From positions 1-64,000 of the forward strand of contig NZ_JAJOIL010000029.1 in the NCBI RefSeq assembly GCF_021209385.1: a stretch of 64,000 nt of DNA. Reading direction: 5' to 3'. Numbering within the stretch: position 1 is the stretch's first letter; each line of letters opens with the position of its first letter. Source of the stretch: Seleniivibrio sp. Lineage in GTDB: Bacteria > Chrysiogenota > Deferribacteres > Deferribacterales > Geovibrionaceae. The notes under the pieces are model-generated. The model was not told the origin of the DNA and did not search any database. It worked only from the letters and a program-made list of their open reading frames with translations. Shown here in pieces: positions 47,443 to 50,491 of the stretch. The position numbers were made by a program, and so were the translations under genes.

Positions 47443-48786
47443 ATGAAAAAGTTACTACTGTTCATTGCCATGATCCTTATGATATTCGGATGCGGGGAGG
47501 AAAAGAAACAGGGACAGCAGACGCCGCAGGAACAAACCACTCAGCAGGCAGAGACACCCGCGCCGCCAAAAGAGGGAAGCAACAGATATTCCCCTGTTGT
47601 TACAGCGGTTAAAAACATTGAAAACTCCGTAGTAAACATAAGAACTGAAAAACTGGTGCGCACATCCGTGGGACCTTTCGGACAGGAAACACCCCACGGA
47701 GAGAACTACCTCAACGACTTTTTCGGATACGACAGAACATACAAAACCCAAAGTCTCGGCTCCGGTTTCATAGTCCGCACAGACGGAACAATTATCACCA
47801 ACTATCACGTCATTGAATCAGCCACAAAGATATATGTCATAACAACTGACAACAAAAGCTATGAAGCTCGTCTTGTGGGCGGCGACAAGATACTCGACAT
47901 CGCAGTGCTTAAGATAATCACCGCAGGGAAATTCCCAGCTGTCAAAATCGGCAACAGCGACGGCGCCATGCTCGGCGAAACAGTAATAGCGATGGGCAAC
48001 CCCTACGGACTTAACAGCTCCATAACCACCGGCGTTGTCAGCTCCGTAAAACGCATCCTCAACATAGGTAACGGATACTCACTTTACATACAGACAGATG
48101 CGCTCATCAACCCAGGCAACTCCGGCGGACCACTTATAAACCTTGACGGCGAGGTCATAGGCATCAACTCTGCAGTTGTTCAGGAGGCACAGGGCATAGG
48201 CTTCTCAATACCCATAAATACGGCGGTTCGAGTTCTGCCTGAAATTCTTAAAAGCGGGAAGGTCACTGCCGGATATATGGGATTCTCAGCCAAAGAGGTC
48301 AAAGACAAAAACAGCATCAGCCTTATAGTGACACGGGTGGAAAAAGGCTCCAACGCTGAGGGCATCGGCATGAGATCCGGCGACAGAATTTTGCAGGTGA
48401 ACGGACTTCCGGTTTCATCAATACTTGCAATGAGCAATATGCTCAGAAGCTATCCCCCAGGTTCAGCAGTTCAGGTTGTTGTAGAGCGCGGAGCAAAGAC
48501 ATTTAAAGGTCAGATACTTCTGACAACCTATCCTGACAATTACGGACTTAGTGTTCTGCGCAATATATACGGACTGACATTCACACAGAAAGAAGACTAT
48601 CTGACCGTAGCTTCCACCGGAATAGCTGATACTGTACACGAAGGCGACGTTCTGGTTGCGATAAACGATACTGAAATAAAGGATATCAACCACCTGAACA
48701 GCTACATAATGGACAACATGGGAACAGAAACCGTAATGACACTTTACAGGTACGGTCAGCTTTTCAGAGTGAAATTTCAGCTTTAA
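47443..48786 (+). CDS. degP: DegP/HtrA-type serine protease, predicted lipoprotein
   Basis: Envelope quality-control protease. The 447-aa protein starts with a lipoprotein signal (lipobox IFGC, Cys17), then a Gln/Pro/Thr-rich linker to about residue 50. The trypsin-like domain has the catalytic triad His122 (NYHVIE), Asp152 (DIAVLK) and Ser227 (NPGNSGGP). PDZ1 is about 280-360 and a second, weaker PDZ-like domain about 370-447 (TVHEGDVLVAINDTEI). Most DegP proteins are soluble in the periplasm; lipid anchoring here is a prediction from the lipobox. Its own promoter faces away from dinG. Confidence 0.9.
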   Translation: MKKLLLFIAMILMIFGCGEEKKQGQQTPQEQTTQQAETPAPPKEGSNRYSPVVTAVKNIENSVVNIRTEKLVRTSVGPFGQETPHGENYLNDFFGYDRTYKTQSLGSGFIVRTDGTIITNYHVIESATKIYVITTDNKSYEARLVGGDKILDIAVLKIITAGKFPAVKIGNSDGAMLGETVIAMGNPYGLNSSITTGVVSSVKRILNIGNGYSLYIQTDALINPGNSGGPLINLDGEVIGINSAVVQEAQGIGFSIPINTAVRVLPEILKSGKVTAGYMGFSAKEVKDKNSISLIVTRVEKGSNAEGIGMRSGDRILQVNGLPVSSILAMSNMLRSYPPGSAVQVVVERGAKTFKGQILLTTYPDNYGLSVLRNIYGLTFTQKEDYLTVASTGIADTVHEGDVLVAINDTEIKDINHLNSYIMDNMGTETVMTLYRYGQLFRVKFQL

Positions 48787-48794
48787 GTGCTTTT

Positions 48795-48808
48795 TTGACA
48801 TAGCTCAA
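48795..48808 (+). promoter_or_regulatory. FNR/HcpR-like operator upstream of hcp
   Basis: TTGACATAGCTCAA is an imperfect palindrome matching the CRP/FNR-family pattern TTGAC-N4-GTCAA at nine of ten arm positions. Its centre (48801.5) would be at -41.5 if transcription starts near 48843 from a TATTGT -10 (48831-48836), the classic activator position. HcpR, a CRP/FNR-family regulator, binds such sites before hcp in many anaerobes; the regulator gene is not in the window. Confidence 0.6.
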
Positions 48809-48832
48809 TTTATTCTGCACGCAAATGCATTA

Positions 48833-48867
48833 TTGTCCTCCTATGAGCAATAACATAAGGAGGACAA
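48833..48867 (+). promoter_or_regulatory. Inverted repeat enclosing the hcp ribosome-binding site
   Basis: TTGTCCTCC (48833-48841) and GGAGGACAA (48859-48867) are exact inverse complements. TATG and CATA inside them extend the pairing with one bulged A, leaving an 8-base loop. The right arm contains the GGAGG Shine-Dalgarno sequence 8 bases before the hcp ATG. As RNA it would hide the ribosome-binding site; as DNA it could be a dyad operator overlapping the -10. Confidence 0.6.
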
Positions 48868-48871
48868 CATT

Positions 48872-50491
48872 ATGAGTATGTTCTGTTTTCAATGTCAGGA
48901 AGCAGCAAAAGGTACAGGCTGCACAGTAAGAGGGGTCTGCGGAAAAACAGATACCTGTGCAGCTCTTCAGGACGCACTGGTCTATACACTGAAAGGCATC
49001 TCCCTTTATGCCGAAAACGCGAACGTCGATAAAAAATACGGACGTTTCGTATCACAGGCGCTTTTCGCCACCATCACAAACGCAAACTTTGACGATGCAC
49101 GCATCTATGAACTTATCCTTGAAGGTGTTAAACTTCGCAATGAGCTGAAAGCCGTTTCAGGCACCACAGTAACTTGCGACTGCGCAAACTGGATTCCCGC
49201 AAGCATGGAAGACGCTATAGCAAAAGGCGGTTCATTCGGCGTTCTTTCACAGGAAAACGAGGATATCCGCTCACTGCGCGAACTTCTTATCTATGGTCTT
49301 AAAGGCGTTGCGGCATATGCCGACCACGCATACGTTCTCGGTTTCGAGGACACAGCAATCTACGACCACATGTTCAAAGCACTTGCAGGAACAACAAAAG
49401 AGCTTTCTGCTGACGAGCTTATCGCTCTCATCATGAAAACAGGCGAAATCGCCGTTACAACAATGGCTCTGCTGGACAAAGCGAACACATCCACCTACGG
49501 CAACCCCGAAGTTACAGAGGTCAACATCGGAACAGGCGCAAAACCCGGTATCCTTATCTCAGGTCACGACCTGAGAGACCTTAAAGACCTTCTGGAACAG
49601 ACAAAAGGTACAGGCGTGGACGTATATACCCACAGCGAGATGCTCCCCGCTCATTACTACCCTGAATTCAAAAAATATGAAAACTTCGTAGGTAACTACG
49701 GAAACGCTTGGTGGAAACAGGACAAGGAATTTGAATCTTTCAACGGTCCCATCCTTATGACCACCAACTGTATAGTACCTGTAAGAGATTCTTACAGAAA
49801 CAGAATGTTTACAACAGGCATGGCAGGCTATCCAGGTCTTAAACATATCGCCGACAGAAAAGACGGCGGTCAGAAAGACTTCAGCGAGATAATCTCACTT
49901 GCTAAAACTTGCCCTGCACCCACACAGATTGAATCCGGCAAAATCGTCGGCGGTTTCGCACACGCACAGGTAATGGCTGTTGCAGACAAGGTTGTTGAAG
50001 CTGTTAAGGCTGGCGCAATCAAAAGATTCGTCGTTATGGCGGGTTGTGACGGACGCCATAAAGAAAGAAACTACTTTACAGAAGTGGCTGAAAATCTTCC
50101 TCAGGATGCAGTTATCCTTACAGCAGGATGCGCAAAATACCGTTACAACAAGCTGAACCTCGGCGACATAGGCGGCATCCCCAGAGTACTCGACGCAGGT
50201 CAGTGCAACGACAGCTATTCGCTTGCAGTTATCGCCCTTAAACTGAAAGAGGTATTCGGACTCGATGACATAAACAAACTTCCTCTTTCATTCGACATAG
50301 CATGGTATGAGCAGAAGGCTGTTGCAGTGCTTCTTGCCCTGCTCTTCCTCGGTGTGAAAGGCGTCCGCCTCGGACCGACCCTTCCCGCTTTCCTTTCTCC
50401 CAACGTGGCGAAAGTACTTGTGGAAAACTTCGATATCAAGCCCATCGGCGATGTGGCTGGCGACGTCGAAAAAATCATGGTCGGCGCTTAA
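48872..50491 (+). CDS. hcp: Hybrid-cluster protein (hydroxylamine/nitric oxide reductase)
   Basis: Hcp reduces hydroxylamine in vitro and nitric oxide in vivo under anaerobic nitrosative stress. The 539-aa protein has the N-terminal cubane cysteines at 5, 8, 17 and 23 ([13 protein letters not shown] then RGVCGK). The hybrid Fe-S-O cluster ligands include GHDLRDL, the ACPAP-like [11 protein letters not shown] region, [29 protein letters not shown] and [17 protein letters not shown]. The length fits the short class with a CX2C start. It appears monocistronic, with an operator and hairpin upstream and a terminator downstream; no hcr reductase gene is adjacent. Confidence 0.97.

Follow-up and report, generated by a model that had tools for sequence, protein, structure and literature searches.

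In the transposase genes of IS10 and IS50, transcripts arriving from outside fold over the ribosome site and those from the internal promoter do not; this fold-back protection serves a mobile-element gene and lacks an activator box, such as hcp has. In long transcripts of the bacteriophage T4 genes e (lysozyme), soc, 49, and I-TevI, the ribosome site is covered by a helix, and the late promoter of gene e lies in the region encoding the 5' strand of this helix, its transcripts being devoid of that strand (PMC3014915). Repression of gene e is 100-fold (McPheeters et al. 1986, cited in PMC3014915). HcpR-controlled hcp promoters carry an FNR-like box, TTGACnnnnGTCAA, upstream of the gene, the regulator gene often adjoins hcp, and the published HcpR1 consensus is wyTTGACnnnnGTCAArw (PMC1274295).

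Here, we scrutinized a 64,000-nucleotide stretch of a Seleniivibrio sp. genome (the window), in which hcp follows an htrA/degP-like gene. T4 gene e is the closest precedent for this locus, given that the 5' strand of the helix lies in the promoter region and that only read-through RNA is locked, which for hcp is a prediction. Unlike T4 gene e, hcp is a nitrosative-stress gene on a bacterial chromosome, its promoter is of the HcpR type, and its lock is predicted from sequence. In agreement with HcpR-controlled hcp promoters, the box lies upstream, and the regulator gene is found beside hcp in several relatives. In contrast to those systems, this genus has htrA upstream, an unlinked HcpR-like gene, a CTCAA box half, and an added dyad over the Shine-Dalgarno sequence (SD).

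A predicted hairpin encloses the hcp Shine-Dalgarno sequence

Features of the locus, and of two further genes with comparable stems, are collected in Table 1. The two arms of the hcp hairpin share 10 nt of exact complementarity (48833-48842 with 48858-48867), and the stem grows to 13 bp through ATG/CAT (48843-48845/48854-48856) with one bulged A. A preliminary description of this DNA had placed the arms, the 8-base loop, the bulge, and the GGAGG of the right arm correctly, including the length of the stem, and had recognized the exact complementarity, but counted nine bases of it rather than ten. RNA spanning 48825-48875 folds at -17.6 kcal/mol, compared with -6.4 +/- 2.5 for shuffled sequences (z -4.6), and, as that description had anticipated for the folded leader, the SD is hidden in the predicted full-length RNA. 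A search of the 2.9 Mb genome for TGTCCTCC-N5..25-GGAGGACA gave a single occurrence, with 0 control matches. An Rfam search returned no family at or above its gathering score, the only match being a sub-threshold one to MicA elsewhere and on the other strand.

Table 1. Coordinates of the hcp locus and of two further genes with SD-hiding stems (window positions unless a locus or contig is named)
Feature	Position	Strand	Remark
htrA/degP-like serine protease gene	47443..48786	+	codirectional with hcp
HcpR/FNR-type box TTGAC-ATAG-CTCAA	48795..48808	+	by comparison with HcpR1 consensus
Possible outer helix, 5' strand: box sequence GACATAGCTCA	48797..48807	+	could pair with hcp start-codon region
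-10-like element TATTGT	48831..48836	+	22 bp after box, class II spacing, box center about -41.5
Left arm TTGTCCTCCTATG	48833..48845	+	48833-48842 upstream of putative +1, overlapping -10
Putative transcription start (+1)	48843, about 2 nt uncertainty	+	from box and -10 positions
Hairpin loop, 8 nt	48846..48853	+	from fold
Right arm CATAAGGAGGACAA, one bulged A	48854..48867	+	contains Shine-Dalgarno
hcp Shine-Dalgarno AGGAGG	48858..48863	+	from sequence
hcp, hybrid cluster protein (hydroxylamine reductase family), 539 aa	48872..50491	+	PF03063 (E 5e-174), TIGR01703
Possible outer helix, 3' strand: TGAGTATGTT of first hcp codons	48873..48882	+	
TonB-dependent receptor gene, SD-hiding stem	L157:15770-15835 (G000 contig C5); also L280, L281, L282		
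Tat-signal metallophosphoesterase gene, dyad AGAGACCT...AGGTCTCT over SD	L266-L270, G000 contig C9 about 87357	-	

The chance level of such pairing was assessed against 827 genes with a good SD, sampled from about 82% of the genome, with gene starts in the background sets set by a simple ORF and SD rule. Equal pairing of the hcp SD region was obtained with P = 0.001 when its own upstream sequence was shuffled and with P = 0.004 per gene when upstream sequences of other genes were permuted. Stems as strong as that of hcp made up 0.41% of permuted SD/upstream pairs, or approximately 3 expected among the 827 genes, and hcp ranked fourth of these 827 genome-wide. The dyad is thus unusual for a gene chosen beforehand and not exceptional across the genome; what lends it weight is that five congeners conserve it, not single-genome statistics.

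A conserved box and -10 element point to a start within the dyad

The stop codon of htrA lies at 48786, 8 bp before the HcpR-type box. The predicted HcpR1 site upstream of hcp (TTGACATAGCTCAA, from 48795) has one mismatch to the consensus in its core halves. In the class II arrangement of FNR and CRP, the box center lies at -41.5. Of 34 hcp loci of the order, 16 have a -10-like hexamer (A2 and T6) at offset 22 after the box, and 12 have it at offset 21. Genome-wide, the combined pattern of box and -10 is matched perfectly only once, at hcp. The FNR-like box named in the preliminary description is thereby substantiated as an HcpR/FNR-type box with a -10 at fixed spacing, conserved across the order. 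Because most hcp genes in the order keep this spacing, we infer that hcp transcription starts near 48843.

With that start, 48833-48842, which corresponds to approximately -10 to -1, would be absent from the mRNA of the promoter itself, and the dyad would matter, if at all, for RNA derived from upstream or as DNA. RNA begun at 48843 has an ordinary predicted fold (z -0.3) and an SD openness of 0.32. In RNA begun further upstream, the predicted openness is 0.08 and the SD is hidden, as is the T4 ribosome site in the longer RNA. No terminator was found between htrA and hcp in this genome (G000) or in congeners G001 and G004, and in G003 a 5-bp hairpin followed by a T-run at the htrA end was scored as terminator-like by a simple criterion. 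The layout is best fitted by RNA reading through from htrA, a case that the preliminary description had overlooked.

The right half of the box is CTCAA in all five genomes of the genus, compared with RTCAA/RTCAT in 29 other boxes, and it pairs better with the hcp start-codon region in the predicted read-through RNA. In the modeled fold, the CTCAA variant would bring the AUG into the lock as well; changed specificity of the regulator explains the variant as well. Several related genera have a Crp/Fnr-family gene adjoining hcp and divergent from it, and the closest homolog of that HcpR-like regulator in G000 is unlinked to hcp, on contig C25.

The putative hcp mRNA (window 48843-48875) opens with an ATG that is conserved in all five congeners. 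This ATG is in frame with hcp in G002, G003, and G004, while in G000 it begins a 10-codon frame that ends overlapping the hcp start. A conserved leader peptide (ATGAGC... at +1) was rejected, since the frames differ, the G000 stop overlaps hcp, and G001 stops after two codons. A start on the minus strand behind a mirrored SD (AGGAGGACAATAATG) was likewise rejected, as it is not conserved.

The stem is a trait of one genus

Comparison covered the five genomes of the genus (G000-G004) and 107 other hcp loci. In all five genomes, htrA directly precedes hcp on the same strand, and the box, the -10, and an SD-hiding stem are retained. In each, the -10/start segment forms at least 8 contiguous pairs with the SD, at -12.1 to -17.2 kcal/mol, and the random-sequence P for this hairpin between promoter strand and SD is 0-0.005. 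Within the genus, the SD is predicted to be less open in read-through RNA (0.00-0.17) than in RNA from the putative start (0.32-0.44). Outside the genus, only one of the 107 loci pairs as well, reaching -12 kcal/mol, so that the inverted repeat sought in relatives exists among congeners (5/5) and not, as a rule, in other genera.

Substitutions within the genus left the stem in place. In G002 and G004, left-arm C to U changes keep RNA pairing as G-U at the cost of DNA symmetry, G001 still forms 8 bp of stem after a shift of register, and the stems of these three genomes are weaker than those of G000 and G003. The compensating changes that the preliminary description had looked to did not materialize: none of 13 pairs in the five genomes showed a two-sided compensatory change, the substitutions being tolerated by wobble or register shift instead. 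Shuffled controls equaled the hcp compensation test on four of five measures and in 103/500 cases on the fifth. Arm swapping between genomes gave no sign of co-adaptation, the left arm of G001 fitting its own right arm no better than the left arm of G003 does. These sequence comparisons are compatible with selection on the dyad, which they do not prove. The five genomes form one clade with one gene order, hence the htrA association counts once. When all 112 hcp loci were compared, 42 with a close codirectional neighbor and no terminator proved to have no hairpin either, so there is no general rule for hcp.

Two further hcp copies were seen. A sister genus (G009, contig C22, 1083 bases to the contig end; L117) carries the 5' end of another hcp, preceded by its own HcpR-type promoter and truncated where the contig stops, possibly a duplicate hcp or an assembly split. 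Congener G004 has a second hcp on contig C5 (L116), 72% identical, with neither an HcpR-type box nor a hairpin.

Other Shine-Dalgarno-hiding stems in the genus

Behind codirectional genes 60-250 nt apart, pairing of the SD with upstream sequence was -7.91 vs. approximately -7.4 after permutation in 1.25 Mb. This excess was not replicated in the 1.14 Mb hold-out (-7.72 vs. -7.46 +/- 0.22), and a general genome rule was rejected because the hold-out half carried no signal. Individual strong SD-hiding stems nevertheless look real. Strong SD-hairpins picked as chance controls proved partly conserved themselves and were therefore unfit as neutral controls.

Upstream of a TonB-dependent receptor gene, the left arm falls between the two hexamers of an invariant TTGACA/TTTAAT promoter, in their 17-bp spacer. 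When G000 is compared with G002, three variable spacer columns and three pre-ATG columns covary to give three new perfect pairs. These compensated pairs are adjacent, two are broken in G003, and 32/500 shuffles equal the compensation across the three sequences. One template-switch event could yield such a paired change without selection (PMC8794818). The arms of the dyad at the metallophosphoesterase gene are invariant in five genomes, one of them at 63% protein identity, and the loop varies.

At an OprD-like porin gene (L288, L289), an SD-hiding CTTCTTGAGTA/TACTYAAGGAG stem is kept in G004, with a U-G to C-G change, and a flavocytochrome-type reductase gene (L272, L273) has an SD-hiding stem whose left arm overlaps TATAAT in G000. 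The G000 genome encodes more than 10 full-length paralogs of a secreted flavocytochrome/vinyl-phenol-reductase-like flavoprotein and many OprD-like porins, some close together.

Interpretation of the hcp dyad

Tentatively, and as a prediction from sequence, the most likely reading is that the dyad acts as a fold-back shield against RNA reading through from htrA. The -10 to +1 segment of the putatively HcpR-activated hcp promoter (48831-48842) would itself be the strand complementary to the hcp SD. RNA begun at approximately 48843 would lack this strand, leaving the SD relatively open and hcp translated when HcpR is active. RNA running in from htrA would contain both strands, form the 13-bp stem, and hide the SD; an outer helix joining the HcpR box to the first hcp codons might add to this. 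In this way, hcp would stay silent without inducer although a terminator between the genes is absent. This reading presumes both read-through from htrA and a block of translation by the stem. The shield is supported by the box/-10 spacing fixed across the order, by the SD-hiding stem behind htrA in 5/5 congeners, by the rarity of comparable pairing at the 107 other hcp loci, by the predicted contrast in SD openness between the two RNAs, by the G-U pairing kept in G002 and G004 and the shifted stem of G001, by the CTCAA box variant, and by the TonB-receptor gene of the same genome, which is laid out alike and has three compensated pairs. It is weakened by the uncompensated hcp stem, which in a single genome lies within genome-wide chance, by the failed replication of the genome-wide excess, and by the 42 comparable loci without a stem.

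The strongest rival, itself a serious though doubtful possibility, is that the stem is a by-product, whereby a pyrimidine-rich -10 to +1 segment happens to meet a purine-rich SD, having arisen by ancestral drift and been inherited without function. Sister genera also have pyrimidine-rich segments before +1 (TATTATCCCTCAT, TATTCTTCCTCAT), one such locus (L088) pairs at -8.9 kcal/mol, and AGGAGGACAA is shared by relatives that lack the hairpin, which makes an ancestral origin of the right arm probable. The 3.4 or so of 827 genes expected by chance and the absence of compensation fit the same account, which sits less well with at least 8 contiguous pairs persisting in all five congeners, each at the random-sequence P given above, despite left-arm substitutions. 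Should the hairpin instead be a 3'-end structure of htrA mRNA (a stabilizer or part of a terminator), its overlap with hcp would be incidental; it does form a stable stem 47-81 nt past the htrA stop, yet a U-run after it is absent and its 3' strand coincides exactly with the ribosome site of hcp, which makes this account improbable.

The two roles proposed in the preliminary description both appear to have little chance of being correct. A riboregulator within the leader of hcp itself would require a promoter above 48833, leaving both arms in the mRNA, where a protein, a small RNA, or some condition would open them. The full-length predicted fold does hide the SD, but the conserved box and -10 set the start at about 48843, which would probably leave out the left arm, a consensus scan of the plus strand at 48600-49000 gave no sigma-70-like promoter, no Rfam family exceeded its threshold, and the stem is absent in other genera with the same promoter; the proposal is thus unsupported. 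The same start near 48843 was the premise of the alternative role, a DNA operator for a second regulator over the -10 and start site. This premise is favored, and the dyad spans 48833-48867, about -10 to +25, with near-perfect symmetry in G000. The operator itself is weakened, being unique in the genome and hence without a regulon, and the left-arm C to T changes of G002 and G004 break DNA symmetry while G-U pairing is kept. Its arms are also 15 bp apart, and the right arm coincides with the SD.

Implications

It is conceivable, if rather unlikely, that promoters in the genus more widely double as anti-ribosome-site RNA, at hcp (through the -10/start region and possibly the HcpR box), at the TonB-receptor gene (through the -35/-10 spacer), and possibly at the metallophosphoesterase and OprD-like porin genes. 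Read-through RNA of such genes would be locked and RNA from the promoter of each gene itself open, which would amount to insulation without a terminator on a bacterial chromosome. If the fold-back shield is real, a tightly induced stress gene can follow another gene directly without a terminator, its promoter doubling as the strand that silences messages not begun there. This would account for the terminator-less state of some inter-gene regions. T4 already provides the logic; to meet it on a chromosome, under the control of an activator, would be reason to look for complementarity between promoters and ribosome sites generally.
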